Of a stretch of DNA of 64,000 nucleotides, positions 2,211-62,336 are shown piece after piece. The notes under the pieces were generated by a model that was not told the origin of the DNA, did not search any database, and saw only the letters and a program-made list of their open reading frames with translations. A program made the translations under genes and the position numbers. Origin of the DNA: Thalassia testudinum (lineage: Eukaryota; Streptophyta; Magnoliopsida; Alismatales; Hydrocharitaceae). The number at the start of each line of letters is the position of its first letter. The first letter of the stretch is position 1. The DNA lies in NCBI GenBank assembly GCA_037157565.1, contig JAZHRO010000024.1, forward strand, positions 9,616,501 through 9,680,500, in the 5' to 3' direction.

Positions 2211-2320
2211 ACATCCAGAAGCCTGCGGGGACGTCTGGCCTAGTTCCCAGACGTCCGATGGTCACCCCGGACGTCTGGAGGTTGCTCCCGCCGTCGGGTA
2301 CTACAGCCAGACGTCTGATT
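2211..2320. promoter_or_regulatory. Six-site 20-bp palindrome ladder (A1)
   Basis: ACGT cores, or one-base variants, of CAGACGTCTG-like sites start at 2211 (acat), 2231, 2251, 2271, 2291 (ccgt) and 2311. All five intervals are exactly 20 bp. Degenerate members keep the phase. The same six-step ladder occurs in A2, A4, A5 and A6. Confidence 0.85.
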
Positions 2321-2418
2321 CGCATTGGATGGAGAATCACCGAGCCTGCGCGCACCCAGCTCTCTCTTTCAGTACTGTCAGTCGACAGGAAGGAAGAAGA
2401 TGGAAGAACTCACCTTTC

Positions 2419-2480
2419 AGACGTCTGGATGGTCTTCCAGACGTCTCCCCCGCCGTCTGGCTATCAGCCCAGACGTCTGA
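2419..2480. promoter_or_regulatory. 20-12-20 palindrome quartet (A1)
   Basis: Cores start at 2421, 2441, 2453 and 2473. On the transcribed minus strand the quartet is followed by AAGGTGAGT, a perfect plant 5' splice-donor match (plus-strand complement at about 2410-2418). Confidence 0.8.
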
Positions 2481-3113
2481 TTCTAGAAATGTTTCCAGAA
2501 TCAGGCCGCGACTCGCCCTCCGCTCGTGACGCCGCGCCTCGTCGCACCTCATGCGCCTCCTGCTCGGACCGCAGCAGTCCCCCCCACGTCGCCCCGCGCC
2601 CGCTGCGCTCCCCGCCGGCCGGCCCTGGTAGCCCCGGCGAGCTCGCCCTCACGGCTGAGCGCCGCTCTCGCACGCAGCACCTCCTCCGCGCTCACTGCGG
2701 CCGCCGCTGCCGCTGCAACCTCGCGCTCGCTGGCTGAAGGAGAAGAGGAAGGAGGCGGTGGTGACGGAAGAGCGCGTGGCCTTTTAAGGCCGCGCGAGGA
2801 GGAGAGAGAAGGAGCGCGGCAGGGGAATCTGCAGCCGCAGAAGGAATAAGCGAATATGCGGGTCTGCGCGCTCAGGCGCGCAGACGACCCGCGCGTGGCA
2901 AAGATAACAGATTTCCAGACGTCTGTCAACGATCCCAGACGTCTGATGATCGAGGCGTTAACTAAGTTTTGTTATAGAAATAGCGTTGTAGTACAGTTAG
3001 TTATTGCCATCAATACATATATAATCTTTTTACTCGGAAATAAAAGAGTTCTCGAGGTCGAACTCAGGGAGCAAGTCGTATTCTAGAAGTACAAATTCTT
3101 ATTACAAAAATAA

Positions 3114-3133
3114 AGAGAGAGAGAGAGAGAGAG
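3114..3133. repeat. (GA)n microsatellite
   Basis: A pure alternating GA run within LTR D. Equivalent (GA)n runs sit at the matching place in LTRs C (21115-21130, 26757-26775) and J (13192-13207). Confidence 0.9.
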
Positions 3134-3149
3134 ATGAAAAATTTGGTGG

Positions 3150-3570
3150 CTTCTTCTTCTCTTCTTTCTTCCTCTTTGTCTCTTCTTTCTTCTCTTCCTG
3201 TTCTTCTTGTCTTCTCTCTTCTGTTCTTCAGATCTTCCTCTCGTGCTCTTCTTTCTTCTCTTCCTGTTCTTCTTGTCTTCTCTCTTCTGTTCTTCAGATC
3301 TTCCTCTTGTGCTCTTCTTCTTCTGTCTTCTGTTCTTCCTTGTTTTCTCTTCTTCTTTCTTTTTTTTTGTTGTTCTTCTTCTTTTTCTTCTTTCTTGTCT
3401 TTCCTCTTCTTTGCCGCGGTCCTGCTTCTTCTTTTCTTCTTCTTCCTTGCCTTCAAGACGTCGTCTGATTTTGCAATCAGACGACTTAAACCGCTGCTGC
3501 TACAGTGTCTCCCTTAGCTTCCGTCTTCTTCTTCTTTTTCTCTTCTTCGTCTTCTTCAGCAATCCTTCTT
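3150..3570. repeat. Polypyrimidine tract with a 66-bp tandem duplication
   Basis: About 400 bases that are almost entirely C and T on the plus strand. Within it a 66-bp unit is directly repeated (3181-3246 and 3247-3312) with few changes. The 22-residue repeats seen when the minus strand is translated (Lys/Arg/Glu only) are a by-product. The tract contains one inverted pair, cgtctgatt/aatcagacg, at about 3459-3484, the only trace of the CAGAC/GTCTG motif in D. Confidence 0.85.
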
Positions 3571-3629
3571 CTTCACCTGTGCCTGCACACTTCAAGGTTT
3601 TCGTCAGAGAGCAAAACCTACTCTACCCT

Positions 3630-3658
3630 CCCCCCCCCCCCCCCCCCCCCCCCCCCCC
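3630..3658. repeat. Poly(C) homopolymer of about 29 bases
   Basis: An uninterrupted C run inside LTR D. Its exact length is unreliable in any sequencing technology. Confidence 0.9.
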
Positions 3659-4815
3659 GCGTCTCTCTCTCTCAGAATTCGCTCTTAGGAAAGCTCTCCC
3701 AGAGCAACCGGGTACGCGGGTCGCTCCCGGGTCCAGGCCCACCGGCGTGCGGTGGTGGGCGAGAAGTGCAGGTCGGGCTAATCGGGTCGGAGCCAGGTCC
3801 GCGGGGCGTGAGCGCGGACGAGGCCGGGTAATCGGGCGGGTGAAGGGGACCTCACCCCGTGAACTGAGGCAAACATATTAAGGCACTTTTTGCCTTTAAG
3901 CGCCCGTTCGCCTCAGTGGGTTTCCGAGGTGGGACTAAATGTCCCACCTCAATTGGACACCTGTGAGAAGGAAGCAACGGCGGTCGAAGCTTCGCACGAG
4001 AGCTTCGCCTCAACTGCAGCCTGGCGCTTCGCGAAAATACCTCGCACAGCCTGGGAGCGTGACCTGAGCGCGGCGCGCCTGGAGCAGCAGGTCGAAGGAG
4101 CTTCTTCACCTCAGCAATGGCGGCGGCGAGTGAAGTTCCTGTTTATAGAGAAAGGGCCTCTCGGCCTAATTAGATACGCGGAGGACTTTCGCCGTGGCAC
4201 GGAGAAGGTGGTCGGGGGGTCTGCAGGTGGCGGGCCGGAGCCTAAGGGCCGCCCTAGGTCAAACTGCAGGTGGCGAGATGGGTTTGTTCGGTGGAGTTGC
4301 AGAGGGCGATTCGGGGGAAGTGGAAGGGCGGAGGTTGATCAGGGTGAGGAGGCGAAGGTTCTGCGGTGGTCGGCGAGCCGTGTGGGTTGCTGGAGTGATG
4401 GGAGCGATTCGCCGGAGTGTGGCCGGAGGTGGAGAAGGTGAGGGTGATTGGTCGGAATCGAGGGCGACAGTAAAGGTTTAAAGTGAGGAAAAGGAAGAGG
4501 GGAGGAAGAGGAGAAGTTATACCTACTTAGCAGGACGAGGAGGGGCCGGAGCAGGCGACAGTCGTATCGACTGTCGCCGGAGAAGAAGTTGCCCAGGGGA
4601 AGGAGCGACGGCGAGAAGAGGGCCGGAGAAGCACGCGCTGGGTGCGGCGGGGCGCGGGAAGAGCGAGGGAAGGCAACCCTGCTGCTGGTAGTGCGGTAGG
4701 GCGACGAGGAGGAGAAGCCGCCGGAGCAAGGGGGCGTCTGTCGGAGTGGGAAGAGAGGAAGTGAGGGGCTATCTCTGTCAGATCCGAGCTAGGAAGAACG
4801 GCGGAGCGACGGGGG

Positions 4816-5060: not shown

Positions 5061-6160
5061 TGCTCAGGTTTTGTAGGAGGGACCTAAACGCAAAGAACGA
5101 AGGAGAGTTAGGGGCCAAAATGTAAGGGTTCAAAAGTTGAGGGCCAGAAAGTAAATGTATGAGAACCAAAGTGTAAAGTTGGTCAAGAAGGTTTCTTCTT
5201 AGGCTCAAGTTTTTATACATGACTAATTAGGACCTAAGGATTCTGATGGTGAATTTTATTTCTAGATTAAACCTTGTTTGACCGGTCAATTTATGTAAAA
5301 ACCCAAATTAAGTTGTTAATTGGGCATGGTTCTCAATGTAGGTCAAAATGGGTTCCTAAGGCCAAATTGAAGGTTCTAAACCCTAGAGATTATTTTTCTA
5401 TGAATTTTAGAGGGTTTATTCTATTTTTAATTTACCTCGAACCTCGTGTATTTAAGTGGGTTTATTTTTAGGGTTACAGGATGTCATTTAATTCTTCGGA
5501 GTTGCTGTAGCCCTTGTTGAGTCATTTCATCCCACTTTTCTTCTTATTAGGTTGTTTTGACCTATGTTTGGACCCTGAGTTACCCTGTTTTCAGATTGGA
5601 TTGGTGAAATTACATTTTTACCCCTCAGTTTATGTTTTCTTTGCAAACTCAGAATCTCTCTGAGCCAAGCCTTTCTAAGGTTATGTAGGAGCTTTTATTC
5701 TCTGTATTAGGTCAAAATGAGCTAGTTATGGCTTATGATGAGGTTCTCATCAACGTCTTATACGACGTCTGGAAGTGATTCCCGACGTCTGGTCTGACGT
5801 CTGGCCCACCTCCCAAACGTCTTAAAATACGTCTAGGGCACGCGTTCATAACAGGGAAGCTCAAGCGTGTGCAGCCGGAGGAGCTCGAGTAGGAGAGCTC
5901 GTGTGTGGGGGAGCTGCGGTTGCAGCCACGAGGAGCTCGGAGGTGCGGGGACCTCCGAGGAGTCTGGGCGTGCGAGAGGGAGGAGGCACAGTCGGAGGAG
6001 CCGCGAGAGCTCGGAGGAGCTTGTACAAGAGACGAGGCCGTAGGAGGAGGTTACGCAACCTCCTGCAACTACTGGAGTCATTGCTGCAGGTGCTGAGGGC
6101 AGAGCTCACGAGAAACAGAACCGCGCGAGGAAGTTCTACATACTGGACTTTTCCAGTATC

Positions 6161-6230
6161 AGACGTCTGGAGAATCTACCAGACGTTTGGACCAGTAGCG
6201 AGACGTCTGGAGCTGAAGTCAGATGTTTGA
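6161..6230. promoter_or_regulatory. Four-site 20-bp palindrome ladder (A5)
   Basis: Cores start at 6163, 6183, 6203 and 6223 (atgt), three exact 20-bp steps. A donor-like GAG|GTATGAG follows at about 6247. Confidence 0.82.
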
Positions 6231-6384
6231 AATTACGCGGAGTGCCGAGGTATGAGTCTTGTACGCTCATGCATGCGTGTACGTGAAGTACGTTAACGCT
6301 TCGTGTTGTTGTTTTAAATTTACGAACGCATGCACAGGTGTAGGACTTGGAAAGGTGTGTAAGGACGCTCTTCGAGGTGCTTTA

Positions 6385-6495
6385 GGACATCTGGACGTCT
6401 CTACAGTTGTCTGATAGACTTATCAGACGTCCGGACTCACTGACAGACATCTAGAAAGACCCCAGGACGACTGTAAGGGGTTCCAGACGTCTGCC
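6385..6495. promoter_or_regulatory. Six-site 20-bp palindrome ladder (A5)
   Basis: Cores or decayed cores start at 6387, 6407, 6427, 6447, 6467 and 6487, all exactly 20 bp apart. Most departures from ACGT are CpG-to-TpG or CpA changes or single substitutions, yet the phase is unbroken. Confidence 0.85.
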
Positions 6496-7447
6496 AGCAA
6501 CACAGGAACACAAGATGAGTTATTGACGTCGTTTAAGACGTTTGGACATATTCCCAGACGTCTGATTTTAGTCTATGTGCACATTTTTGGCCGGTTCGGG
6601 ATCCAAACGGAGTCGGATTTACGCAAACGAAGTACCGTTGTTTTCCATTCGAGTTTTTCTATGTGTTAGTAAGAGTTATATACTGTTCTGAACTCGTCTG
6701 ATGTGATTTAATCACTGGTATAGGTCTTCAGCATGTAGCGTGTTCGGAGTCCGCGGAGATGACAGGATCTGTGACTCTAATCCCTATTCCTCCCGTGTTT
6801 TCTGGTAGAATGGTTTACCTTCATACTAAGCTTTAATTAAGTAAAATGCCTGCTTAGAATAACCTGATTGAACCTTAGGATGTGAAATGAACCCTATGGC
6901 AGAAACGAATGAACAATGTTGAGCTACACTGTTTACTTTGAGATGCATGTTAAAATCTTAATTGCTAGCAAGTGTATAGATACATGATGTGATGCTTCTT
7001 TAGTTATTGAAACACGAGTTGCCTGTTATATGAATGAGAATTCGGAATGTGAACCATGAGATATGAATATTGAGAAACAAAATGAAATGAATACAGTGCA
7101 TGAACCCTACAGGAAACTAGGAGAAGAACTCCTGTATACAAAAAGAATCTCGTATATAGACGGGAAGTGAGCTGGTCCTTGTGTACACAGTACCAAGGAG
7201 AGTAGCTGTCCCTTTAGTGTAGAGGGGAGCTAGCTGCCTCTTAGGTTGAGATCCGGGGTTAAGACTAGTCATTCTACACCGACTCCTATTCGACCCTCGC
7301 GTACGTGGTACCGAGGTGAGCTACTTAGTGTAGGGAGGGAGCTAGCCGTCCTACGGGGCCCAGGGTTAGGACTAGCTACCCTACATCGACACTTGTTAGG
7401 CCTACTAGGAAAATCGGGATAGTCGAACGAGGGAACGCGGACTGTGG

Positions 7448-13519: not shown

Positions 13520-13715
13520 GTTTATGTAAAGACCCATTCTGTCCTGAGCCCTTTAAAACGTCTGGACTGTCGGTCAAACGTCTAGACCCCTTTCCTGACG
13601 TCTGAAAATTGAAAAGTTGATACGTGACTTCACGTTTGAACGTGGGCTGCACGCAGACAGTACCACCCTTCTCTTTCTTCCCTCTTCTCTTCACCCCATC
13701 CGAACCCTAATGCAC

Positions 13716-13726
13716 CTCTATAAAAC
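13716..13726 (+). promoter_or_regulatory. TATA box of LTR A2
   Basis: CTCTATAAAAC lies about 190 bp from the LTR start, followed by a C/T-rich start region and a purine-rich leader. Equivalent elements sit near 168 (A5), 2785 (A1, minus), 32910 (A4) and 61475 (A6). Confidence 0.7.
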
Positions 13727-14065
13727 CATTCTCCCCCCTCTTCCTTTCTTCCCCACTTCACCATAGCCACCCTCCTTCCTCCCTCTCCACTGCAGCGAGA
13801 GGAGCGAGCGTGAGAGAGAGCGCGAGAGCGAGCGATGAGGAGGAGAGGCGGCATGAGGAGAGGAGGAAGAGCTTGAGCTCGCGAGCTTGTGGGAGCTCGC
13901 CGAAGGACGCACAGCTGGAGCGGCGCATGTGAGAGGAGGAATGCGTCGGGGGAGACGTCCCCGACACTTGCTGCAGCTGGAGCTGCAGGCGAGGAGGCGA
14001 GGCCGCAGCTGCACGCGGCGAGGGAGAGCAGCAGGTCGTTCTGATTCTGGGTTTTTCCTAGAATC

Positions 14066-14126
14066 AGACGTCTGGCGTGTCGACCAGATGACGGAGCGGA
14101 TGTCTGGTGACAACACTGGACGTCTG
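14066..14126. promoter_or_regulatory. 20-12-20 palindrome quartet (A2)
   Basis: Cores at 14068, 14088 (atga), 14100 (atgt) and 14120. A donor-like AAG|GTACGT follows with GT at 14146. Confidence 0.8.
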
Positions 14127-14280
14127 AAAGCAGTATTCCGCGAAGGTACGTTTCTTTTGCGGATACGGCCATGCAGGTCGCACCGCAACCTCAATCTTCA
14201 TGGCTAAAAGCGGTAGATTTTTCCTGTCACGTGCAGAGACAGCTTCGGGAAGGCGTGGGGCACGCCCTCCCACGCGATTC

Positions 14281-14392
14281 AGACATTTGGATACCTTACC
14301 AGATGATCGGAAGCACTCCCAGACGTCCGGAGGAGAGGTCAGACGTCTGGAGTTGGGTCCAGAAGGTCAAAAAGAGGTTCTGGACGTTTGAG
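14281..14392. promoter_or_regulatory. Six-site palindrome ladder (A2)
   Basis: Cores or decayed cores at 14283, 14303, 14323, 14343, 14363 and 14384: four 20-bp steps and one of 21. GAG|GTGAGT follows with GT at 14411. Confidence 0.8.
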
Positions 14393-15429
14393 GTCGACGC
14401 AGAACCTGAGGTGAGTTTTTGGTTACTTTTAAGACATATGGACCTTGTGTAAGACGTCTGATTTAGGTCTGGAGTTTTATTTTTGACCCGTTTAGAGTCC
14501 ATTTGAGGTCTATTTTTCTCAAACAAGATATCGGTGTTTTCCTCGTGAATAAAAATCTTCTACTTGTTAGAAGGTCTTTTATACTGTTCTAAATGCTCCA
14601 TTGTGGTATGTTCCTTGGTATAAGACTTCGATCGGTTGCAGGTTCGGGGCTTGCTGAGGTACGTGAGCCTGTCGTTCGAGCCCCCAATACTCCCGGGTCA
14701 TCTGGTAGAGTGGTCTTCTCCTAATTTAATTATAAAACCTGAATGCATATGTGAATTAGATAACTAGAAACCTAAGATGTGGCATGAATCCTAGGACGAG
14801 AAGTACTTGCACTGTTTGTATGCGTGTTTGAAATTGTAGTCTGAAATGAATGAATAGAAATGTGAACAACTGCCTGTTAATGAATAAGAGCTGCCTGTGA
14901 AATATGAAATGCCTGTGCTAGTTAGATAGTTACCTGACACACCTTGTTGTATGTGTTAAATGATGGAAATACGAGTTGCATGTGGATAATCTGAGAATGG
15001 AAATGTGAATGATGAAACTGTTGGTGCTAGAGCACCACGATCATTTGTTTTGATGATAACAAAACACGTGTCATTTAATATTTGCGCTTTGAGTCCTAGA
15101 TTTCAGGTCAATCGCAAATGGATACGTGATTAGACGGAGTTCGAGCTCGCATCCAGGACGGATTGGACGAGCTTGATGGAAAACAGAAGAGATTCGCGAG
15201 GAGCGATAGATTAAAGATGGAAGGAAATGAAGAATAGGATATATTTCCTTCTCTTGTACTTGTTGTATTTTTTCGTTTCTTTTGTTGCTCTTTATTTCCT
15301 TAGATAATTCATGTTAAAGAGCCTCAAAGTACCCTAACAGTAGTCCTAGGAACACCTGCACAACCCTAGGATACTTAGGTTTTCTGTAGAATACTTAAAA
15401 AACCAATATAGGGTTCAAACAGAGTTTCC

Positions 15430-15602
15430 AGATGTCTAATTCCCAAATCAGACGTCTGATAAAGTATTTTAAGACGTCTGACTGTTGTTTCAGACGTCTG
15501 ATAACTGTTAGGCTGGACATAGTTAGTTCTGTCTGATGAAATCAAACGTCCAGACCTTATACCAGACGTCTTAGGAGACGTTTGATGGATTTGCCAGACA
15601 TC
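15430..15602. promoter_or_regulatory. Palindrome quartets upstream of the B promoter
   Basis: Cores at 15432 (atgt), 15452, 15474 and 15494 (spacings 20-22-20), then 15546, 15566, 15578 and 15598 (acat) (20-12-20). The second set has exactly the spacing seen in family A. Confidence 0.85.
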
Positions 15603-16056
15603 CAATTAGTGGACCGTTGGCTCGCTTAGCAAACACTCAAGATTATGACGGTTAGAGCCTTATCAGACGTCCTTAGGCCTTTCCAGACGTCTGATAAATG
15701 ACCGTTTTGCCTCAGCTGACCCAAAATCTCTTCTCAGAGATTTTCTAGCCGTTGCAACGTTTGGAAAATCCATTCCTACAGTAAAAGTAGGTTTCCAGAC
15801 GTCCTATATGTCGTCTGATGGACTTGCACTAGAACCCTGTTTAGATCTGATTCAAGTCAGGAAGAGACCCGCCCAAAATTAGACGTCTGACCTTGAAATC
15901 AGACGTCTTAAAGTGAACTTCCAGACGTCTGATGATAGAATTAGACATCTGATAAGCCTGTCAGAACAATGATTGTTCCTGATTTCGGGCTGATTCTCTT
16001 GGGCTTTGTTCCCAACGGCTATAGAACCTTTCCTAAGCCTTCCAAAGCCTTCCTAA

Positions 16057-16072
16057 GGCCTCTATAAATAGA
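16057..16072 (+). promoter_or_regulatory. TATA box of LTR B (itself palindromic)
   Basis: CCTCTATAAATAGAGG is a TATA box embedded in a perfect inverted repeat (7+2+7). The same sequence is in the B1 3' LTR (about 19302-19317) and in B3 (minus strand, about 31226-31241 and 37146-37161). Confidence 0.8.
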
Positions 16073-16748
16073 GGGGAACCTTTGCAACATAGAGACACAC
16101 CTAGATACACTAAGAAACACCTAGAGACACCAAGATACCAAGAAATAATTTGTATTACACTTTCCACTCTCTTGTGTCCTAGCTATCTCTTGCTCTCCAA
16201 GCTCAAGCTCCATTCTCTTGAGAGCATCAAGCTGTTGCGTACCCGCTCTCCCGTTGTAGTTCACGAGAGCGAAGTTGCGCCGTCGCGTGGCTCACGCACC
16301 GCGTCATCAACTCGACGCACTCCTTGCAAAGGGTAGTTTCCTTATTCCTATAGAAGCTATGTTCATAATTACTTTGTTGGCTCTATAGGACTTGTTGTTT
16401 ATTTTATCTTTGTTATTTGGTTGGGTATTCGCTTTACGAATTCCCATCTCCTTCGTGAGACAAAATCCTTCTCGTGGAGAGAAGGGGTTGAGGTACGCTA
16501 CCCTCGTCTAAGTAGCGTGGTTGTATTGAGGTTGAATCACCCTCGTTTAAAGTGATTCGGTTTAGTGGATTTTGATCAACTTGGTTGATCGGAAAATCCT
16601 AACTCGAGAGGGTTAGGTGGTGGTTTTCACCCGGTTTGGGTTTCCACCTAAAAATACTTTGTGTACTTTGTGTGATTGTTATTTTGTGAAGATTGTTTAT
16701 TTTATTTCCGCAATTATTACGTCACCCCCTCCGAGTAGGGAGCTTTCA

Positions 16749-16762
16749 TTGGGTATCAGAGC
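16749..16762 (+). other. B1 primer binding site with one extra base
   Basis: TTGGGTATCAGAGC follows the 5' LTR. The usual initiator-Met tRNA site, seen in B3 and E, is TTGGTATCAGAGC, so this copy has one inserted G. Confidence 0.75.
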
Positions 16763-16802
16763 AGGTTCTTGCGAGATCGGAGTAACACCCGGCAAGAAGA
16801 TC

Positions 16803-17933
16803 ATGGAGGGAAGCTGTTCCACAAGTAGGATTTCCGAGGGCCAGTCTACGACTCGTCCACCGTTCTTCGACGGGAGCAACTACCCCTACTGGAAGCTGCG
16901 GATGAAGACTTGGCTTCAAGCCAATGACTTCACGATTTGGGACAGGTGCGAGACCCCGTTCGACATTCCAGAAAAATCCACCGCAGGATACTCGCAGCTG
17001 CAGATTCATGAGCTTTCCCTCAACGCAAAGGCAATGAATGCCTTGTATTGCGCATTGAGTCCGAAGGAATTTGAACGAATCCAAGAGTGCACCACCGCCC
17101 ACGAGATATGGAGGAGGTTGCAAGGCACTCATGAGGAGACGAGCTCGGAAGAAGATCTCGGGGAGAAGGAAACCACGTGCCTTGGTTTCATGGCAATCGG
17201 AGAAAGTAACAAGGACAGCGACGACAGCGATAATGAGGTAAACTCGGATTTACAAGATGCTTTTAATGAGTTGTATGAGCTTAGTAAATCACTAAAAATA
17301 GAAAATAAGAGCATGAAAAAGAATCTTAGTTTTCTTAAATCTGAAAATGATAGGTTAGAAATAAAACTTAAGGATCTAGAAGCTAGTCCTAAAAATGATA
17401 ATCTATTATTAGAAAATCATAACCTCGTCAATGAAAATAATAAATTGATTGAGGAAAATAATAGTCTAAAGTTAGAAATCTATGATTTAAAGACTAAGAT
17501 GAATACTATAGAAAATGAACTTGCATGTCTTAGGGAGAAATCAAATAAATTGATAAATAGGGTAGATAACATATATAGCCCTAAGGTTGAGAAAGGATCT
17601 CCGTCAAGGAGACCTGCTAACCGATCCGGATCCAAGCTCACTTGGATACCGAAGAAGGAATTAGAATCTTGTTTTGTAGGTCATAATAACTACAACACGA
17701 ATGACTGGACCTACAAGCTCAAGTCTGGTCAACTCGAGTTGGGAGAACCAAGGAGTAGACCAAGGAGGAGAACAAGAAGACCGACGAGACGGCGAACAAA
17801 TGACGGACCCGCCGCACGTCGACCACCAGATTGGAGACCGGCGCCAATGCCCGGGCCTCCAAGCTACGGATGGGAGCCCCATCCAATGTGGCATCCACCA
17901 CCACCATTTGGTCCATTTTATTGGCCATGGTAG
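16803..17933 (+). CDS. Truncated Sirevirus-like GAG with coiled coil and Arg/Pro-rich tail
   Basis: A 376-residue ORF. I chose the ATG at 16803, just after the PBS; the longer reading frame starts inside the LTR. Order by residue: a copia GAG (UBN2-type) start with FDGSNYPYWKLRM near 23-35 and AKAMNALYCALSP near 77-89; then, right after WRRLQGTHEE, a jump to an acidic region resembling the part of Sirevirus GAG that lies after the zinc knuckle (CLGFMAIGE). Next come a long coiled coil (about 140-250), a WIPKKELES block, an Arg-rich segment (about 310-335) and a Pro/Trp/Tyr-rich tail ending PFYWPW. The CCHC knuckle and the middle of GAG are missing. It is probably a particle protein fragment that co-assembles with a helper's GAG. 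B3 carries a broken homologue of the same layout. Confidence 0.8.
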   Translation: MEGSCSTSRISEGQSTTRPPFFDGSNYPYWKLRMKTWLQANDFTIWDRCETPFDIPEKSTAGYSQLQIHELSLNAKAMNALYCALSPKEFERIQECTTAHEIWRRLQGTHEETSSEEDLGEKETTCLGFMAIGESNKDSDDSDNEVNSDLQDAFNELYELSKSLKIENKSMKKNLSFLKSENDRLEIKLKDLEASPKNDNLLLENHNLVNENNKLIEENNSLKLEIYDLKTKMNTIENELACLREKSNKLINRVDNIYSPKVEKGSPSRRPANRSGSKLTWIPKKELESCFVGHNNYNTNDWTYKLKSGQLELGEPRSRPRRRTRRPTRRRTNDGPAARRPPDWRPAPMPGPPSYGWEPHPMWHPPPPFGPFYWPW

Positions 17934-17980
17934 GTGAGGTAAAATCCTTTACCCTGTCTTTTTATCATAAGCATTTAGAT

Positions 17981-18260
17981 AGGGGGAGTTAAAAAATTAT
18001 AAGCTAATTGTCAATTTTTAAGGGGGAGATATAAGGTAGCTAAATTTCCTTTAGAAAGGGGGAGAAAAATAATAGCTATCTTGTTGTTATAAAAAAGGGG
18101 AGAGGCATTACCTTTGTCAAAAGAAATTTATAGAAGAGCATGTTTTAAGGGGGAGTTATAGGAAATGTAAAATCAATTAAACCTTTTTGATAATGTCAAA
18201 AGGGGGGAGTATTTTCTGCATTATTATTTATGGTTTTGTCATCATCAAAAAGGGGGAGAT
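17981..18260 (+). other. Array of seven polypurine tracts before the B1 3' LTR
   Basis: AGGGGGAG-type runs occur near 17981, 18021, 18055, 18097, 18147, 18199 and 18250; the last abuts the 3' LTR. B3 has the same number in the same order (minus strand, 32300-32580). Multiplied polypurine tracts are a known Sirevirus trait. Confidence 0.88.
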
Positions 18261-20011
18261 TGTTGGTGCTAGAGCACCACGATCATTTGTTTTGATGATA
18301 ACAAAACACGTGTCATTTAATATTTGCGTTTTGAGTCCTAGATTTCAGGTCAATCGCAAATGGATACGTGATTAGACGGAGTTCGAGCTCGCATCCAGGA
18401 CGGATTGGACGAGCTTGATGGAAAACAGAAGAGATTCGCGAGGAGCGATAGATTAAAGATGGAAGGAAATGAAGAATAGGATAGATTTCCTTCTCTTGTA
18501 CTTGTTGTATTTTTTCGTTTCTTTTGTTGCTCTTTATTTCCTTAGATAATTCATGTTAAAGAGCCTCAAAGTACCCTAACAGTAGTCTTAGGAATACCTG
18601 CACAACCCTAGGATACTTAGGTTTTATGTAGAATACTTAGAAAACCAATACAGGGTTCAAACAGAGTTTCTAGACGTCTAATTCCCAAATCAGACGTCTG
18701 ATAAAGTATTTTAAGACGTCTGACTGTTGTTTCAGACGTCTGATAACTGTTAGGCTGGACATAGCTAGTTCTGTCTGATGAAATCAGACATCCAGACCTT
18801 ATACCAGACGTCTTAGGAGACGTCTGATGGATTTGCCAGACATCCAATTAGTGGACCGTTGGCTTGCTTAGCAAACACTCAAGATTATGACGGTTAGAGC
18901 CTTATCAGATGTCCTTAGGCCTTTCCAGACGTCTGATAAATGACCGTTTTACCTCAGCTGACCCAAAATCTCTTCTCAGAGATTTTCTAGCCGTTGCAAC
19001 GTTTGGAAAATCCATTCCCACAGTAAAAGTAGGTTTCCAGACATCCTATATGTCGTCTGATGGACTTGCGCTAGAACCCTGTTTAGATCTGATTCAAGTC
19101 AGGAAGAGACCCGCCCAAAATCAGACTTCTGACCTTGAAATCAGACGTCTTAAAGTGAACTTCCAGACGTCTGATGATAGAATTAGACGTCTGATAAGCC
19201 TGTCAGAACAATGATTGTTCCTGATTTTGGGCTGATTCTCTTGGGCTTTGTTCCCAACGGCTATAGAACCTTTCCTAAGCCTTCCAAAGCCTTCCTAAGG
19301 CCTCTATAAATAGAGGGGAACCTTTGCAACATAGAGACACACCTAGATACACTAAGAAACACCTAGAGACACCAAGATACACAAGAAATAATTTGTATTA
19401 CACTTTCCACTCTCTTGTGTCCTAGCTATCTCTTGCTCTCCAAGCTCAAGCTCCATTCTCTTGAGAGCATCAAGCTGTTGCGCACCCGCTCTCCCACCGT
19501 AGTTCACGAGAGCGAAGTTGCGCCGTCGCGTGGCTCACGCACCGCGTCATCAACTCAACACACTCCTTGCAAAGGGGAGTTTCCTTATTCCTATAGAAGC
19601 TAGGTTCATAATTACTTTGTTGGCTCTATAAGACTTGTTGTTTATTTTATCTTTGTTATTTGGTTGGTTATTCGCTTTGCGAATACCCAACCAAATAACA
19701 GAATTCCCGTCTCCTTCGTGAGACAAAATCCTTCTCGTGGAGAGAAGGGGTTGAGGTACGCTACCCTCGTCTAAGTAGTGTGGTTGTATTGAGGTTGAAT
19801 CACCCTCGTTTAAAGTGATTCGGTTTAGTGGATTTTGATCAACTTGGTTGATCGGAAAATCCTAACTCGAGAGGGTTAGGTGGTGGTTTTCACCCTGTTT
19901 AGGTTTCCACCTAAAAATACTTTGTGTACTTTGTGTGATTGTTATTTTGTGAAGATTGTTTATTTTATTTCCGCAATTATTACGTCACCCCCTCCAAGTA
20001 GGGAACTTTCA
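18261..20011 (+). repeat. B1 3' LTR, with a fold-back duplication
   Basis: Matches the 5' LTR along its length. An extra stretch creates an inverted repeat at 19655-19699 (arms 19655-19675 and 19679-19699, 20 of 21 pairing, 3-base loop) that is absent from the 5' LTR. Confidence 0.92.
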
Positions 20012-20016
20012 GAAAC

Positions 20017-20231
20017 CTGGTATGGAATGGCATGAGAAATACGAGCATGAACCCTATGGGGAATTAGGAGTAGAGCTCCTGTGAATAAATGGAATGGATC
20101 TGGAAATATGAGTGGGAAGTGTGCTGGCCCTTGAGTATGTAGTACCAAGGAGAGCGACTATCCCTTGTTTAGTGTAGAGCATAGCTAGCCGCTCTTGGGT
20201 TGGGACCCAGGGTTAGGATTGACTACTCTAC
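20017..20231 (+). mobile_element. LTR A2, middle segment
   Basis: The A2 sequence between B1 and B2. It aligns with 34150-34330 of A4 (gaaccctatggggaattagg and following). Confidence 0.85.
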
Positions 20232-21587
20232 TGTTGGTGCCAGAGCACCACGATCATTTGTTTTGATGATAACAAAACATGTGTCATTTAACATTTGCAC
20301 TTGAAGTCTTAGATTTCAGGCAAATTGCAAATGGAGACGTGATTAGACGGAGTTCGAGCTCGCATCCAGGACGGATTGGAGGAGCTTGATGGATAACAAA
20401 GGAGATTCGCGAGGAGCAATAACTTGAAGAAGGAAGGAGATGGAGAATATGATAGATTTTCTTCTCTTGTACTCTTTATATTTTTCGTTTCTTTTGTTGC
20501 ACTTTATTTTTGTTACTTAGATTCATGTTAAAGAGCCTCAAAGTACCCTTACACTAGTCCTACGAACACTAGCACAACCTTAGGATACTTAGGTTTTCTG
20601 TAGAGAACTTAGAAAATAAATATAGGGTTCAAACAGCTTTTTCAGACGTCTAATTCCAACATCAGACGTCTGATAATGTGTTTTAAGACGTCTGACTGTT
20701 GATTTAGATGTCTAATAATATTTAGGCTGGACTTACTTAGCTTTGTCTGATGAAATCAGACGTCTAGACCTTAGTCCAGACATCTTAAAAGACGTCTGAT
20801 GGACTTGCCAGACATCCAATTAGTGGACCGTTGGCTGGCACACCGAAGACCAGAGGATATGACCGTTAGAGCCTTATCAGACGTTGTTGAACGGTATTTT
20901 TGCAAACGCTACGCTTACGAGATTGGTTTTGGAAAACCTGTCATTGTAGTTCAAAAAGCGAAGAATTCGTGTTCAACAAATAAAATTTATACTGAAAATA
21001 ATTCCAGGTCGAACATAGGGAGGCTACGTTGATCTATATTCGCAATTATATTTTTTTTAGGTTTTTTTTATAAGCAAGGCGATATAATTACAATGGAGCT
21101 ATCCGACTAAAAGAAAGAGAGAGAGAGAGAAAGAGAACATTCATTCAATATTTCAACTGTTTATAAATGTTACACTAGAATGCGAAAAATCAATTACACT
21201 ATAAAGCAGGAAAATTCTACACTAGAAAAGCTGTAAATAAGAATGGGAGAGAGAAATTATCCTCCTCGATGATTGCTTGGAGGACGAGCCGGACGGGACG
21301 ACGCCTGAACGAAGGAGAACGAAGCAGGACGAAGGAGGATGAAGCAGAAGAACGGGAATGGAGTAGCACGCCGTCGTCGTCGCGGGATCCACTTCCGAAG
21401 GGGAATGAAAATTGGACTTTATCTCGCAAGAAGCATCCCGGGTGTGGGACAAGCTTCTTTTGAGCTTTGGAGGGGTAGAGAGGAGAAAGCAGGGATGAGA
21501 ATTTCGTATGGAGGGGGTCTCCTTTTATAGTTGCAAGGAGTGGGGAAAAAATGGACATTACAACTTCAAAACAATAAATAAGGGGTC

Positions 21588-32705: not shown

Positions 32706-32724
32706 TGTAATGAACGCGTGCCCC

Positions 32725-36468: not shown

Positions 36469-36469
36469 T

Positions 36470-51445: not shown

Positions 51446-52016
51446 TTCAGCGGTTCTCTTAGATGAACCAAGACACAACTACTGCTGCCACTGCTACTCC
51501 TGATACTGCTGCTTTAGCATCCTCCTCATGTAGTATTTTTGGTTTTGCTATTCAGGATTCAAATATTGTTAAGAATTCATTGTTGGTTGGCTCCAGTGCA
51601 TCTCTAGGCAATTGAGTGACAATGAATATGCTTTTCAGAGATTGCAGTCAGCTCCACCGATAGAACTGTTCAGGTGGCTGATGGGTGCCATTCCAGAGTT
51701 GACGACCAAGGGGATATGGCTGTGACCCCTACACTTCGGCTACCAAATGTTTTATTTGTTCTTGATTTTCCCATTAGCTTTCTGTTTGTTAGTTGGATTA
51801 TTAAAGATCTAAACTGCTGGGCTCTATTTGATGCTATGGGATGTGTATTTCATGACAAACTCATAGGGAGGATGATTAGTGGCAGACATGAGGAGGGGGG
51901 AGTCTATCACCTAGTCTAGAGTCCATTTACTGGTTCATGTCAGGGGGAGGTTGCTCTGTATTGCTACTTAGTGGCACAGATGACTTAGACGCCCTTCTCT
52001 GGATAGGTTACGACAT
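51446..52016 (+). pseudogene. Element F protease / pre-integrase region
   Basis: Retains LRLPNVLFVLDFPISFLFVS, the block after the protease, and HEEGGVYHLV before the integrase zinc finger. The protease active site is not visible. Confidence 0.6.
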
Positions 52017-53241
52017 GTGATCCCCCATATGTCACCTGTTGCTCAGATTACCTGTGAGCCGTGCCAACTGGGCAAACATCACAGGAATAGTTTTTCTGTC
52101 GGTTCTTCCACTAGTTCGTCTGCATATTTTGATTTGATTTATATGGATATATGGGGGCTTAGTCGTGTATCTGATCGGCTGGGTCATAAATATTACTTGG
52201 TCATTGTTGACGATTTCTCCGGAATGTCTTGGTTATTTTTGTTGAAAAATAAGGTAGATGTTGGTAGTGTGATTGAATATTTTATAGTTCAAATAAAGAA
52301 TCAGTTTTCTACTATGATTAAGATTGTCAGACTTGATAATGCAAAAGAATTCCTTACAATGCGTTTGCAATCTTTTTATCGTATGCACGGAATTATTCAT
52401 TAAATCAGTTGCCCTCATACTTCTCAGCAAAATGTGGTGGCTGAAAGGAGACATAGATATTTGTTGGATGTGGCACACACTCTTCTCATTCATCATAATG
52501 GTTCTTCCAGATTTTAGGGTGATGCTGTACTTACAGCCTGCTACTTAATTAATCGACTGCCTAATTTTCTGTCCAGGATCGGTACCATGGCAAATTCTTT
52601 TTCCTAACAAAGAATTATTTTACGTGTCACCCAAATTTGAGTATGTTGCTTTTGTTCACATACATGGTCTAGGACATGATACGCTTGCACCTCGTGCTGT
52701 GAAATGTGTCTTTTGGGGCTACAATTCCACTAAAAAACGATATAGATGCTATGATGCTTGCACCAGACATCACTTCGTCAGTGCGGATGTGACCTTCCAT
52801 GAGGAGATTCCCTATTTCTCCACAGCAGGGCATGACATCATTGCTGATACTGAATGTGTGCCTATGCTTGTTCCCCTAGTCCAGCTAAAAGAGATACCAA
52901 TCACTTCTGCTCCAGTTGATATAGGTGTAGAGCTTCTCGGATACAGTCAGCCACCTCATGTGTACACCTTGGCTGTCTCTTACAGACAGAGACCCCTCTC
53001 TCCTCCCCCCCCAGCCATTGAGGATACTGATCCCTCTTCTTCCTATGATGATTCTCCAGGTCTATATGATGATTCTGTTGCTAATCCTAATGTGGATCTT
53101 CCTATTGCTATTAAGAAGGTTCCATGTTCGTGCCCATTTAGATATCGAGTTCCTGATGATCCTCTTACTACTAATATTGGACGATCATTTGCTAGGTTTA
53201 CTACAACACTGATGGCTACTGTTGTTCCTACTAGTCACTAG
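52017..53241 (+). pseudogene. Element F integrase and C-terminal region
   Basis: CEPCQLGKHHRNSF zinc-binding end, FDLIYMDIWG, VDDFSGMSWLFLLKNK, and in the next frame HTSQQNVVAERRHRYLL. After a frame change, the 205-residue ORF at 52624-53241 covers the GKR-like end (AVKCVFWGYNSTKKRYRCYD) and the variable Pro-rich linker before RT. Confidence 0.88.
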
Positions 53242-53269
53242 CATGCCATGCTTCATCTCAAATGGTAGC

Positions 53270-54110
53270 TAGCCATGGAGGATGAGATGGCTGCTCTTCG
53301 GTCTCGAGGCACTTGGGATCCTACTTCCTTGGTGCTCATGTTGTTGGATGTAAATGGGCATTTACTCTTAAATATAATTCAGATAGCTCTATATCACGAT
53401 GTAAAGTACACTCAGTTGCCAAAGGATTTACTTAAACTTATGAAGTAGATTTCTTTGACACTTTTTTCCAGTGGCTAGACTACCTACAGTTCATAGTCTT
53501 CTTTCTATTACAACACATTATGATTGGGATTTATATCAGCTAGATGTCAAAAATGTATTTTTATATGGAGACTTGCAAGAAGAAGTTTATATGCAGCAGC
53601 CCCCTGGTTTTGAGATTAAGGGAGAGTGTGTGTATAAACTTAGAAAGGCCATTTATGGTCTTAAACAAAGTCTTCGAGCTTGGTTCAAAAAATTGTCTAA
53701 GGTGGTGCAAGACATTGGACTCAAGCGATCTTTTGTCGATCACTCTCTATTTGTTGGGAAGAGTGATAAGGGAGTCGTGGTATTACTTGTATATATATCG
53801 ATAATATTATTATTTATGGAGATGATGCAGCAGGGATACAGAAGGTGAAACAAACTTTGGCTAACAAGTTTGTTATGACTGATTTGGGCACTTTGAGATA
53901 CTTCCTTGGCATCGAGGTGGCCGGTGGCAAGGATGGGATTACGATTTCCTAGTGGAAGTATGCTATTGATCTTCTCAAGGACACAAGAATGTTGGGTGTC
54001 AAGCTTGTCAATATTCTAATGGATCCTAAGGGACATCTATATGATGAAAAGTCTCCTCAAGTTGATAGTAGATTATATCGACAGCTTATTGGTTAATTAC
54101 TTTATCTTAC
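53270..54110 (+). pseudogene. Element F reverse transcriptase
   Basis: VARLPTV... start, QLDVKNVFLYGDLQEEVYMQ, KAIYGLKQSLRAWFKKLS and DHSLFVG. A small deletion and frameshift near 53795 removes the YVDD box. Later DLGTLRYFLGIEVA in another frame shows the rest survives. Confidence 0.88.
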
Positions 54111-54239
54111 CATTATCAGGCTAGATATTTCATTAGCTGTTGGAAAATTGAGTTAATTTATAAGCAAGTCTACAAGGCAACATTGGGTGGCAACAATGCA
54201 AGTTCTCAGGTACCTTAAAAAGGCACCTGGCAGAGGTTG

Positions 54240-54690
54240 ATTGTTTAGGAGAGGATTACTTAAGTAGGTTGTTGGCTATTCTAATGCCGATTATGTAGGA
54301 TGCCTTACAGATAGAAAATCTACGACTGATTTCTGCACTTATCTACCTGTAAATCTTGTGACATGGAGAAGCAAGAAACAGGCTGTGCTTTCCAGATCAA
54401 GTACAGAATCTGAGTATCGAGCTATGGCTAAAACAACAGCAGAGATGGTGTGGCTACTGGCTATATTACAGGACTTGTATATTCAGACTCAGTTACCTAT
54501 GGAGATGCGGTGTGACAACAGAGTTGCAGCATACATCGCAAATAATCCTATGTTTCACGAGAGGACAAAACACATGGAGGTGGATTGTCATTACACTCAT
54601 GATTTGATTTAGAGGGGCATCATCTATACTACAACCGTCACTTTTGAAGAACAGATTGCAGATGTGTTCACTAAGTCATTGGCTAGAGCT
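54240..54690 (+). pseudogene. Element F RNase H
   Basis: SNADYVGCLTDRKST, TWRSKKQAVLSRSSTESEYRAM and NNPMFHERTKHMEVDCHYTHD, then a stop and the PPT. The catalytic DADY box reads NADY here (Asp to Asn). Confidence 0.88.
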
Positions 54691-54890
54691 TCTTTTGACA
54701 CATGTTGTAACAAGCTGAACATGATTAACATTTATATTTCAACTTGAGGGGGAGTGTTGTAAAGCCTCCCATAGTCTATTTTTTATTTTTATATTTCTAT
54801 GTGGACCTCCATTGCTATTTTTCCTTCCACCTCCTCTATAAAAGAGGTGTTAGGGTTTTTTTAATTATGATTAACTCATTTGGTTTATTT

Positions 54891-58432: not shown

Positions 58433-58576
58433 GTTAGGATAAACAAACGACTTGATTTTCATTAGGAAACCTTAACACATCTTTTATAGAGGAGGTGAAA
58501 CGAAAAATAATGATGGAGATCCATATAGAAATAGAAAAATAAAAATATAACGGTGGGAGGCCTACAACACTCCCTC

Positions 58577-59200
58577 TCAAGCTGGAACATAGATATTTAT
58601 CATGTTTAGCTTATTACAACATGTGTCAAAAAAAGCTCTGGCCAATGGCTTAATGAATACATTTGCAGTCTGATCATCAGAAGTGGCAGCTGTAGTATAG
58701 ATGATGCCCCTCTCAATTAAGTTACGAGTGTAATGACAATCCACCTCCATGTGTTTTGTCCTCTCGTGAAACATGAGATTATTTGCAATGTATGCTGCGG
58801 CTCTATTGTTACACCACATCTCCATAGGTAACTGAGTCTGAACATGCAAGTCTTGTAATACAGCCTATATCCACATCATCTCTGCTGTTGTTTGAGCCAT
58901 AGCTCGATACTCAGACTCTGCACTTGACTTGGATACCATAGCCTGCTTCTTGCTCCTCCATGTCACAAGATTTCTAGCTACATAACTGTAGAAACCAGTC
59001 ATGGATTTTCTGTCTGCAAGGCATCCCACATAGTCGGCATCAGAATAACTAACTTGCATAGGTGATCCTCTCTTGAATAATAAACCTCTACTAGGTGCCT
59101 TTTTAAGGTACCTAAGAACTTGCATTGCAATCTCTCAATGTTGCCTAGTAGGCTTGCTCATAAATTGACTCAATTTTCCAACAGCTAATAAAATATCTAG
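58577..59200 (-). pseudogene. Element I RNase H
   Basis: SYSDADYVGCLADRKSMTGF, TWRSKKQAMVSKSSAESEYR, then a TAG stop after MMWI, and NNLMFHERTKHMEVDCHYTR. The catalytic DADY is intact. Confidence 0.88.
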
Positions 59201-59214
59201 CTTGGTAATAATAA

Positions 59215-59961
59215 GGTAAAGTAGTTTACCAATAAGCTATCAATCTGATCTGCTATCTACCTGAGGAGACCCTACATCATATAGATGTCCTTTAGGATCC
59301 ATAGGAATATTGGCAGGCTTGGCATCCAACATTCTTGTGTCCTTAAGAAGGTTAATAACATATTTCTGTTGGGAAATCATAATCTCATCCTTGCCATGGG
59401 CCACCTCGATGCCAAGGAAGTATCTCAAAGTTCCTAAATCAGTCATAACAAACTTGTTTGCCAAAGTTTGCTTTACCTATTGTATCCCTGCTATATCTCT
59501 AGAAATAATAATATCATCTACATACACAAGTAATACCACGACCCCCTTATTACTTTTCCTGACAAATAGAGAGTGATCAGCATAAGACTGCTGGAATCCA
59601 ATGTCATGCACCACCTCAGACAACTTTTGGAACCAAACTCGGGGACTTTGTTTAAGACCATAAATGGCCTTCTAAAGTTTACGCACACACACTCCCCCTT
59701 AGTCTCAAATCTAGGGAGCTGCTGCATATAGACCTCCTCTTGCAAATCACCATATGAAAAGGTAATTTTGACATCTAGCTGATATAAATCCCAATCACAA
59801 TGTGCTACAACTGAAAGAAGAATATGAACTGTAGGTAGTCTGGCCACTGGAGAAAAGGTGTCAAAAAAATCTACTCCATAAGTTTAAGTAAATCCTTTGG
59901 CAACCAGGCGGGCTTTATACTGTGATATTGACCCGTCAGAATTATATTGGAGAGTGAAGAC
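59215..59961 (-). pseudogene. Element I reverse transcriptase
   Basis: VARLPTVHILLSV, QLDVKITFSYGDLQEEVYMQ, then a frame change. YVDDIIIS is readable at about 59518-59530 in another frame, followed by DLGTLRYFLGIEVAH. It is better preserved than F at the catalytic box but still broken. Confidence 0.86.
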
Positions 59962-61290
59962 TCATCTGCATCCAGCAACATGGGCTCTAGCAAGTAAGGA
60001 AGTAAGCTCCCAAGTGCCTTGGGATCGAAGAGCAGCCATCTCATCCTCTATGGCTTGCTGGTGACTGGTAGGAACAATAGTGGCCTTCAGTGCTGTAGTA
60101 AACATAGCAAATGATCGTCTAAGATTAACAATATGAGGATCATTAGGAATGCGATATTTAGATGGGTACGAACGTGGAACCTTCCTAATGGTAATAGGCT
60201 GATCTACATTAGGATCAGCAACAGAATCATCAGGGCTAGAATCTTCATATAGACTTGCAGAATCATCATGGGAAGAAGGATTAGTATCCTCAAGATGTAC
60301 TTGTGTACTCGAGGAGGGAGGTGGCACTGGGGAAGGAGAGGGGGGTCTCTGTCTGTAAGAAACAGGCAAGGTGTACACATGAAGTGGCTGATTGTATCTA
60401 GGAGGCTTTGCACCTGTATCAACTGGAGCAGAAGTGACTGGTATCTCTTCTAGCTGGACTGGGGGAACAAGCATAGGCACACATTCTATATTAGCAGTGA
60501 TGTCATGCCCTGCCATGGAGAAATAGGGGATCTTCTCATAGAAAGTCACATCTGCACTAACAAAGTGACGTCTGGTTTGACCATCATAACATCTATAACA
60601 GCACGGGGTGAAAGCTTATTATGTCTTGGATCATGTATATGGACGAAAGCAACACACCCAAAAATTTTGGGTGGCACATGAAATAATTCTCTATCAGGAA
60701 AAAAATCTGCCACGGCACTTGATCCTGGACAGCGAAATTTGGCGGTCGATTAATTAAGTAGCAGACTGTAAGTATAGCATCACCACAAAATCTGGAAGGA
60801 ACATTGCGACGAATCATAAGAGTGTGTGCCACATTTGACAAGTGTCTATGTCTCCTTTGAGCTACCCCATTTTGCTGAGAAGTATGGGGGCAACTAGTTT
60901 GATGAATAATTCCATACATACAATAAAAGGATTGCAAATGCACTATAAGAAATTCTTTTTCATTATCAGATAGTAGAAAACTGATTCTTTATTTGAATGA
61001 TAAAAGATTCAATCACACTACCAACTTCTGTCTTATTTTTCAACAAAAATAACCAAGACATCATGGAGAAATTATCAACAATCACCAAGTAATATTTATG
61101 ACTCAATCGGTCAAGTACACGACTAGGCCCTATATGTCTATATGAATTAAATCAAAACATGTAGACAAACTAGTAGAAAAATTAGCAGAAAAACTCTTCT
61201 TGTGATGTTTGCCCAGTTGGCACACCTCACAAGTAATCTGGGCAGCATGTACTATATGGGGAATCACATGCCGTAGCCTATCCAGAGAAG
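59962..61290 (-). pseudogene. Element I integrase and linker
   Basis: HPSLDRLRHVIPH and CEVCQLGKHHKKSFSANF near 61130-61290. The core block HTSQQNGVAQRRHRHLSNVA is at 60943-60840. A 195-residue linker ORF (60549-59962) parallels F's 52780-53240. Confidence 0.87.
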
Positions 61291-61788
61291 GGTGTTGAAA
61301 TGATCCTTCCCAAGGGCCGTGGGGCCATTTTCTGAAATTTAGGGGGGTTGTTGCAATTTGTAACCCCCTGGATTTCTTATTTGAGGGGTTCTGTGGATAA
61401 AAGAGGCTCTTGCGGGGCATTTCTTGCAAAATGCCTCGACCCCACCTACACTCATGCACACCCCTAAACCCTAAACCCTCCTCTCTATTTAAACCCCTTG
61501 CCTCAATTTCCAAGCCACCTACCCTCTCCCATTTCCTCCTTGCGGCGCACACCAGCACCTTCCTTTCCCCCCTTCCCTTCCGTGTATTCCTTGCCCGCAC
61601 AAGGAGCTCTAGCTGTGGGAGCTTGAGTGCCCAAGGAGCTTGGGCGAGCTGACGATAAGGCTTGGAGGGAGGGCGTACATGCGAAGTTGAGGGAGCGCCA
61701 TTGCTGCTATAACTCCTAGTGTAGGGGGGTTGATTTCGCGAGGAGAAGGCTCGTGGACGGTTCTGCGGAGTCATTTTTCTGCAGAACC

Positions 61789-61850
61789 AGACATCTGGGG
61801 AGTCCAACAGACGTCTGATGGGACATCCAGAGATGTCACCAAACGTCTGA
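61789..61850. promoter_or_regulatory. 20-12-20 palindrome quartet (A6, first)
   Basis: Cores at 61791 (acat), 61811, 61823 (acat) and 61843. Donor-like TAG|GTAACG follows with GT at 61869. Confidence 0.78.
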
Positions 61851-62032
61851 TACCGCGTAAAATCTTAGGTAACGCCCTATTTGAGACATGCGCAATTTTC
61901 GATGTATTGTTCCCTGCCCAGTAGGCGTAAGACTGAGCGCCTTGGTGTGTGTGTGCTGCACAGGGTGTGGGTGCTTCCCACAAGGAGAGGAAGGTTCATG
62001 AATGGCTTTGGCAGAGATTTTCTCCGCAGATC

Positions 62033-62095
62033 AGACGTCTGTATCTCTTAACAAACGTTTGACCGGACGTCCGGAGGTAGCACCAGATGTCCGAT
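62033..62095. promoter_or_regulatory. 20-12-20 palindrome quartet (A6, second)
   Basis: Cores at 62035, 62055, 62067 and 62087 (atgt). G|GTAAGG follows with GT at 62112. Confidence 0.8.
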
Positions 62096-62226
62096 AAAGC
62101 AGATTCAAATGGTAAGGTTCTGTTCGCTTGTATATTTCATACGTGTTGTCTGCGAGTGACTGTACGTCACTGTGCGCATGTAGGGCCGTTGGGAAGAGGG
62201 GCAAGTACGGCTCCCCATACACTTTA

Positions 62227-62336
62227 GGACGCCTGGACATCTCTTCAGACGACTGATACCCGTCCCAGACGTTTGAGTACATTGCCAGACGTCTGGAAGA
62301 ACCCCTGGACTATCGTGAGGGGTTCCAGACGTCCAA
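62227..62336. promoter_or_regulatory. Six-site 20-bp palindrome ladder (A6)
   Basis: Cores or decayed cores at 62229, 62249, 62269, 62289, 62309 and 62329: five exact 20-bp steps. AAG|GTGAGC follows with GT at 62353. Confidence 0.85.

Follow-up and report, generated by a model that had tools for sequence, protein, structure and literature searches.

The window analysed here, a 64,000-nt stretch of Thalassia testudinum contig JAZHRO010000024.1, contains five copies (A1 to A5) of a long terminal repeat (LTR) designated LTR A, each carrying one ladder of six sites related to the palindrome CAGACGTCTG. The site positions ran from 2308 down to 2208 in A1 (minus strand; ladder 2208-2317, 20-bp steps, in an LTR extending from 370 to at least 2945), and on the plus strand at 6384-6484 in A2 (ladder 6384-6493), 14280-14381 in A3 (ladder 14280-14390), 33390-33490 in A4 (ladder 33390-33499), and 62226-62326 in A5 (ladder 62226-62335). 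On a strict 20-bp grid, 49, 49, 41, 49, and 47 of 60 letters, respectively, matched CAGACGTCTG, and 6 of the 30 grid positions were poor sites with six or fewer matching letters. As the register control, each ladder was resampled 3,000 times under a Markov model, and the best of the 20 phases scored 22 on average and 30-33 at most; this confirmed the six-site ladders that a preliminary description had placed at these five positions. That description also reported a single 21-bp step. Such a step was found, but in the 14.28-kb ladder (A3), which is third in its list order and does not fit the label "A2" given there; the 6.38-kb ladder (A2) showed 20-bp steps throughout. Over the whole window, 39 exact copies of CAGACGTCTG and 145 within two mismatches were detected, and 60 pairs of the 145 were exactly 20 bp apart.

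The ladders were accompanied by further clusters of sites. A four-site cluster (cluster 1) was located upstream of the ladder in all five copies, with steps of 20-12-20 bp in A1 (2418-2479, minus strand), A3 (14065-14126), A4 (33225-33286), and A5 (62032-62093), and of 20-20-20 bp in the 6.2-kb copy A2 (6160-6229). A pair of sites 20 bp apart (cluster 3) lay 48-51 bp past the ladder, again in five of five copies (2137-2166 on the minus strand in A1, 6535-6564 in A2, 33540-33569 in A4, and 62374-62403 in A5). Additional sites were present near the LTR start of A1 (2916-2945, minus strand, 20 bp apart), A2 (5762-5823, 20-12-20), and A3 (13555-13604, 20-20, ahead of a TATA-like box at about 13.72 kb). 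As a separate observation, splice-donor-like words such as AAAGGTGAGTT occurred just past cluster 1 at 33287-33390 and at the same place in A1, A2, A3, A5, and the genome piece L009, and, among the copies of LTR A that were inspected, AG-ended stretches preceded the ladder, giving the impression of a short intron between the two clusters; this pattern was picked out by a regular expression and by eye only.

LTR A is the LTR of a Ty3/Gypsy chromovirus, because gag, the protease-reverse transcriptase-RNase H-integrase order, and a chromodomain adjoin a matching LTR in two overlapping genome pieces. The first (L027) contained an LTR end that matched A4 at 95.5% identity over 1,545 bp and was followed by a Met-tRNA primer binding site (PBS) and then by gag (PF03732); the junction LTR A end-AGA-TGGTATCAGAGC, which includes this PBS, has 3,702 + 3,514 occurrences in the genome. 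The second (L029) contained, in order, PF08284, PF00078, PF17917, PF17921/PF00665, and PF00385 (protease, reverse transcriptase, RNase H, integrase, and chromodomain), followed by the 3' LTR. The two LTRs of this chromovirus were 99.3% identical over 1,257 bp. Its 3' LTR held 18 sites within two mismatches, and the preceding 3.5 kb of coding sequence held one with one mismatch and four with two. No open reading frame (ORF) of at least 90 aa lay wholly between the integrase/chromodomain ORF (ending at L029:3501) and the LTR (about 3590), LTR-internal ORFs being outside this coding check. Elsewhere, a 667-aa ORF without a Pfam match (L024:4778-6781) was considered as a gene for a binding factor and rejected; the frame is located downstream of the gag-pol in a degenerate Gypsy element, and nothing links it to the motif.

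The palindrome was also found in the Copia LTRs of the window. The Sirevirus-type element at 15019-20011 (plus strand; LTRs at about 15019-16748 and 18261-20011) encodes a Copia-type gag (PF14223, E 1.3e-08; ORF 16617-17933), and no pol ORF was found in it. It contains five AGGGGGAG polypurine tracts (PPTs), the last of which, at 18251, lies exactly 10 bp before the 3' LTR start at 18261. A second Copia element has seven AGGGGGAG PPTs, the last 10 bp before the LTR, in a stretch read with its nested insertion included; both window Copia elements thus carry the multiple PPTs by which a Sirevirus is recognized. Four whole Copia LTRs held 11-16 sites each at LTR positions 409-943, upstream of a TATA-like box at about 1044 (located in one LTR), whereas most Gypsy sites lay in the inner LTR. 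In the element at 15019-20011, four sites with 20-22-20 steps form module A (15429-15500, plus strand), and an inverted copy with the same steps forms module B (15880-15951, minus strand; 57 of 84 letters shared). The minus-strand Sirevirus-type element at 30550-38219 carries an array in each LTR, at 31349-31890 (LTR 30550-32299) and 37269-37810 (LTR 36470-38219), both on the minus strand. Its LTRs are 98.9% identical, and it houses A4, a solo chromovirus LTR (32706-35352, plus strand) with the 5-bp target duplication CCCGG, indicating that both families were recently active. Nesting was also seen at 13531-30252, where the Gypsy LTR A3 is split by the Sirevirus-type element 15019-20011 and by a second Sirevirus LTR (20230-20884 and 28168-29249), itself split by an element with its own repeats of about 1.65 kb (20885-22528 and 26531-28186; 92%).

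The preliminary description was thus too narrow in scope: it missed cluster 1, the pair past the ladder, and the motif in the window Copia LTRs, and the motif proved to be genome-wide. In the 4.26-Gb assembly (237 contigs), exact CAGACGTCTG occurred 455,398 times and the reversed word 2,620 times. Exact CAGACGTCTG pairs at a 20-bp step numbered 22,560 (control 0), compared with 52 at 21 bp and 199 for steps of 13-19 bp pooled, and pairs of the 8-letter core AGACGTCT numbered 54,917 at 12 bp (control 1) and 896 at 21 bp (control 3). In 13 genome pieces chosen by position (13 of 15 fetched, leaving out L009, picked for its sites, and L017, the reference), 40 of the 41 sites carrying one mismatch or none fell inside sequence that matches these LTRs or no more than 300 bp away from it, and an exact site was present in 4 of the 13.

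The spacing was restricted to a few classes. Nearest-neighbour steps of up to 45 bp, sampled from the window and 16 fetched genome pieces including the site-rich L009 (n=213), comprised 136 at 20 bp, 35 at 12 bp, 15 at 22 bp, and 27 elsewhere. Adjacent steps in Copia (nine copies, 104 sites) included 42 at 20, 15 at 22, and 7 at 12 bp, and those in Gypsy (ten copies, 121 sites) included 58 at 20, 8 at 12, 7 at 32, and 6 at 40 bp. Steps of 20 and 12 bp were the main ones in both superfamilies, with 22 bp added in Copia. A four-site 20-12-20 module was common to both, as cluster 1 in Gypsy and at positions 523-575 in the Copia copies C3 and C4, and the two mutually inverted 20-22-20 modules of Copia, compared in three copies, agreed at 57, 56, and 52 of 84 letters. 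As an exception to the 20-bp rule, a 21-bp step is used by at least one subfamily; among the 21-bp pairs listed for the 8-letter core, the odd-length symmetric spacer GATTC-TGT-GAATC, with variants, recurred often.

These classes bear on the suggestion, made in the preliminary description, that a site every two helical turns covers one face of the DNA. A 20-bp step is indeed near two turns, and runs reach six sites. However, 12, 20, and 22 bp correspond arithmetically to 1.14, 1.90, and 2.10 turns, steps of 12 and 22 bp are used, and the step that makes two full turns, 21 bp, is strongly depleted and thus avoided. With 10.5 bp to the turn, the 100 bp of a ladder make about 9.5 turns, so that the phase slips by half a turn per ladder and its two ends point to almost opposite sides of the DNA. 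As a rule, then, the steps do not follow helical phasing, and a one-faced array is very improbable.

The sites were dyad-symmetric with symmetric flanks in both superfamilies. The letter preceding GACGTC was A in 81-89% of sites and T in at most 1%. The CREB/TGA-type bZIP site is TGACGTCA; the A in this position means that the sites are something other than this bZIP site, which leaves the earlier guess of a bZIP-like core weak. The remark that spacers are often symmetric came down to a weak excess of symmetry in the Gypsy spacers (94 against 82 expected; 192 of 5,000 shuffles reached the observed value), limited to the three letters flanking the sites.

One explanation of such regularity is descent without function, in which the spacings go back to a small number of founder LTRs and were multiplied by copying. 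Amplification accounts for most of the counts, and the location of nearly all near-exact sites (40 of 41 in the 13 pieces) in or near these LTRs fits with it. On the other hand, the 20-bp register was kept across the three LTR A lineages (A1/A4, A2/A5, and A3), between which sites were 65-77% identical and spacers only 22-38%, near random identity; the register therefore outlasts the spacer sequence. A check of spacing drift agreed with this, since the ladder length was steady (100, 100, 101, 100, and 100 bp) while the gap between cluster 1 and the ladder (cluster 2) varied from 110 to 164 bp, as measured from landmarks entered by hand from the site listing. The sites also diverged at about half the rate of the spacers. 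This comparison used the less diverged of the LTR copies, six of nine for Copia and five of ten for Gypsy; non-CpG divergence at sites, in spacers, and elsewhere was 0.058, 0.119, and 0.092 for Copia and 0.054, 0.132, and 0.067 for Gypsy, giving site-to-spacer ratios of 0.49 and 0.41, values reached by 4 of 419 and 0 of 391 mask rotations, respectively. The Gypsy contrast is largely one of fast spacers, because its sites are only slightly slower than the LTR elsewhere. Per kb, gap openings numbered, in the same order, 3.2, 2.7, and 11.8 for Copia and 0.6, 7.3, and 9.2 for Gypsy. Moreover, the two superfamilies share these steps although their spacers differ (27% identical). Descent alone is improbable as the source of the arrays.

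The spacers also bear on whether a ladder consists of recent tandem copies of one 20-bp unit. Spacer identity was 31.3% within ladders (30 pairs), 34.2% between Gypsy copies (1,101), and 27.2% between Copia and Gypsy (1,173), and the inner four spacer letters were 21.7% identical within ladders and 25.0% between superfamilies. Because the spacers of one ladder resemble each other no more than do those of other copies, recent tandem duplication left no trace in the spacer identities and was rejected. An ancient duplication is possible as the origin of the ladder.

The array segment could instead have passed by recombination between Sirevirus and Gypsy elements, in either direction, without convergence. 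A two-site composite, TTTAAGACGTCTG-N10-CAGACGTCTRAT, recurred with variation in Gypsy (10 of 11 copies) and in inverted form in Copia (6 of 8 copies), which speaks for such a transfer. Its N10 spacer differs between the two, however, and Copia and Gypsy spacers are unlike overall, as noted above. We regard this origin as possible though rather doubtful; it would be compatible with the functional reading that follows.

The same palindrome at fixed spacings in two unrelated kinds of element suggests that one DNA-binding protein reads both. We favor, as the probable explanation, that the arrays are operator (enhancer-like) arrays for a dimeric sequence-specific DNA-binding protein, with few allowed dyad-to-dyad geometries. 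The observations underlying it are the motif itself, its dyad symmetry, its genome-wide enrichment, the spacing classes, the LTR location in both superfamilies, and the slower evolution of sites than of spacers. The position of the Copia sites ahead of the TATA-like box, shared with the repeated-motif boxes of Sireviruses, also favors it. A dimer would bind each CAGACGTCTG dyad, and neighbouring dimers may touch or lock cooperatively at 12, 20, and, in Copia, 22 bp. The bound protein would then promote LTR transcription or shield the promoter region from silencing. The factor is probably encoded by the host, because two superfamilies share the sites and the one chromovirus read had no extra gene between the integrase ORF and the 3' LTR. 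More tentatively, a single plant trans-acting factor with a strict code (dyads 12, 20, or 22 bp apart) may have been adopted by two LTR superfamilies, the chromovirus using or mimicking a Sirevirus operator; on the sequence evidence this stronger version is plausible, yet we hold it with reserve. If it were true, both families, with hundreds of thousands of sites, would be under one switch. With a shared factor, the growth of two major transposable element (TE) families in a 4.26-Gb genome could hang on one regulator, and Gypsy elements would be seen adopting a Copia control sequence. The spacing rule also sets a direct test for the binding protein: 20 bp yes, 21 bp no, 12 bp yes.

Several observations weigh against operator arrays. 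The genome counts are counts of copies and are not independent events. Exact pairs of the 10-mer at 22 bp are rare too (83 genome-wide); in the sampled 22-bp pairs one partner was mostly AAGACGTCTG or CAGACGTCTT, and in this sample, the low exact count goes with that substitution. Divergence at CpG letters was similar for sites and elsewhere in the LTR (0.134 vs 0.155 in Copia; 0.125 vs 0.132 in Gypsy), so that nothing suggests that sites are spared methylation decay once an element has inserted. The CpG observed/expected ratio (o/e) of the Copia array region (300-899 bp, 300-bp bins) was only 0.56-0.89. The five Gypsy LTRs profiled count in favor of the operator reading instead: in 300-bp bins, o/e was about 1 or more (0.91-1.31) over the array-bearing first 900 bp and mostly lower (0.23-0.99) past 1.2 kb. 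The profiles indicate that a hypomethylated array is possible for Gypsy but is not indicated for Copia. A last point against operator arrays is that Copia arrays folded more stably than both spacer-shuffled (z -3.3 and -4.1) and site-permuted (z -3.4 and -3.8) controls.

The folding result points to RNA or single-strand hairpins, in which neighbouring palindromes would pair in the transcript and serve RNA structure, small-RNA production, or packaging. The fold advantage of Copia is in line with its two four-site modules, which are inverted with respect to each other and share 52-57 of 84 letters. In four of five copies, Gypsy arrays outdid spacer shuffles by more than one standard deviation (z -1.4 to -4.4), the weak excess of spacer symmetry (192/5,000) would also suit hairpins, and maize small RNAs are in excess on Sirevirus palindrome clusters according to the passages of PMC10760457 and PMC5311732 that cite Bousios 2016. 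Gypsy folds, however, did not beat site-word permutation (z -1.8 to +0.4). Pairs of sites 20 bp apart showed no compensatory excess, with 3 of 10 double deviations complementary against a null of 4.6 (862 of 1,000 shuffles reached this), and those 12 bp apart gave a hint of compensation (5 of 8 complementary, null 2.6, 85 of 1,000 shuffles). Exactly 10 loop letters are not needed by a hairpin, and a 12-bp step leaves a loop of two letters; the exact 10-letter spacer, easy for a protein lattice and hard for hairpins, suggests the former. Simple hairpin selection was set aside, being without support in Gypsy and with some in Copia in the folding and compensation tests. Hairpins are an unlikely general explanation, and a double DNA and RNA role is possible for the Copia arrays.

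Two other features of the window were noted. Simple repeats (GA, TC-rich, and poly-C) occupy 3122-3660 and enclose a degenerate CAGACGACTT/GACGTC pair. Inverted 2.9-kb stretches at 51989-54888 and 58439-61295 are 80.5% identical and include Copia pol fragments (SH3, RVT_2). A comparison of gag recovered six relatives, among them two JGI entries at 80-83% identity and one each from Rubroshorea and Cinchona (39%).

The closest known system, as far as the passages compared go, is the repeated motif (RM) of Sirevirus LTRs. In those passages, Bousios 2010 (PMC2829016) describes, for 13 Sireviruses, a palindromic RM that lies upstream of the TATA box and, with a single exception, has a CGG-CCG core; the RM was called Sirevirus-specific in a comparison of Ty1/copia elements, and its binding factor was then not known. 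The arrangement published there also includes multiple PPTs, of which the final one precedes the 3' LTR by 10 bp. The Copia arrays resemble the RM in having many copies of a short, perfectly dyadic palindrome in the LTR upstream of TATA, in an element that shares the multiple PPTs, and the Usier RM (GTCGGACGTCCGAC) shares the GGACGTCC centre in form. With 11-16 sites, the Copia LTRs exhibit the palindrome in at least eight copies in the upper LTR before TATA that characterizes the RM. A CpG island, another RM feature, was not seen in the Copia array (o/e 0.56-0.89 in 300-bp bins, judged on o/e only), while the o/e of the Gypsy array was about 1 or more in most bins. In contrast to the RM as described in these passages, the outer letters here are CAG-CTG and not CGG-CCG, with G as the second letter in only 10-12% of sites; the motif also occurs in Gypsy chromovirus LTRs, so that it is not restricted to Sirevirus; the Gypsy sites lie mostly in the inner LTR and not only upstream of TATA; and a fixed spacing between boxes is absent from the PMC2829016 passages compared.

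Two further systems were compared on the basis of selected passages. The targets of VANC proteins of Arabidopsis VANDAL elements (PMC5735166, PMC10398659) are likewise arrays of short motifs in non-coding TE parts, and VANC6 motifs are also described in the unrelated TE AT9TSD1. Unlike the factor proposed here, VANC is encoded by the TE; its motifs YAGTATTAY and AGTTGTMC are not palindromes of this sort and sit in tandem repeats, whereas the spacers here do not form repeats and no extra gene was found in the single chromovirus read. The maize Sirevirus palindrome CACCGGACNNNGTCCGGTG (PMC10760457) is similar in that one palindrome crosses superfamilies, being found also in Helitron-annotated regions, and it is the one precedent for such sharing in the literature passages compared. 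It differs in that structured RNA regions in Copia and Helitrons are described there, with no Gypsy and no spacing rule in those passages. Among the papers listed for the literal 10-mer, none dealt by title with plant transposons, and no comparable Gypsy array appeared among the literature matches on Sirevirus, chromovirus, or GACGTC palindromes or on motifs shared by Gypsy and Copia (no paper for the last), judged at listing level only. Taken together, the Copia case is of the known RM kind with changed outer letters, and what is new is the presence of the palindrome in Gypsy and the spacing code.

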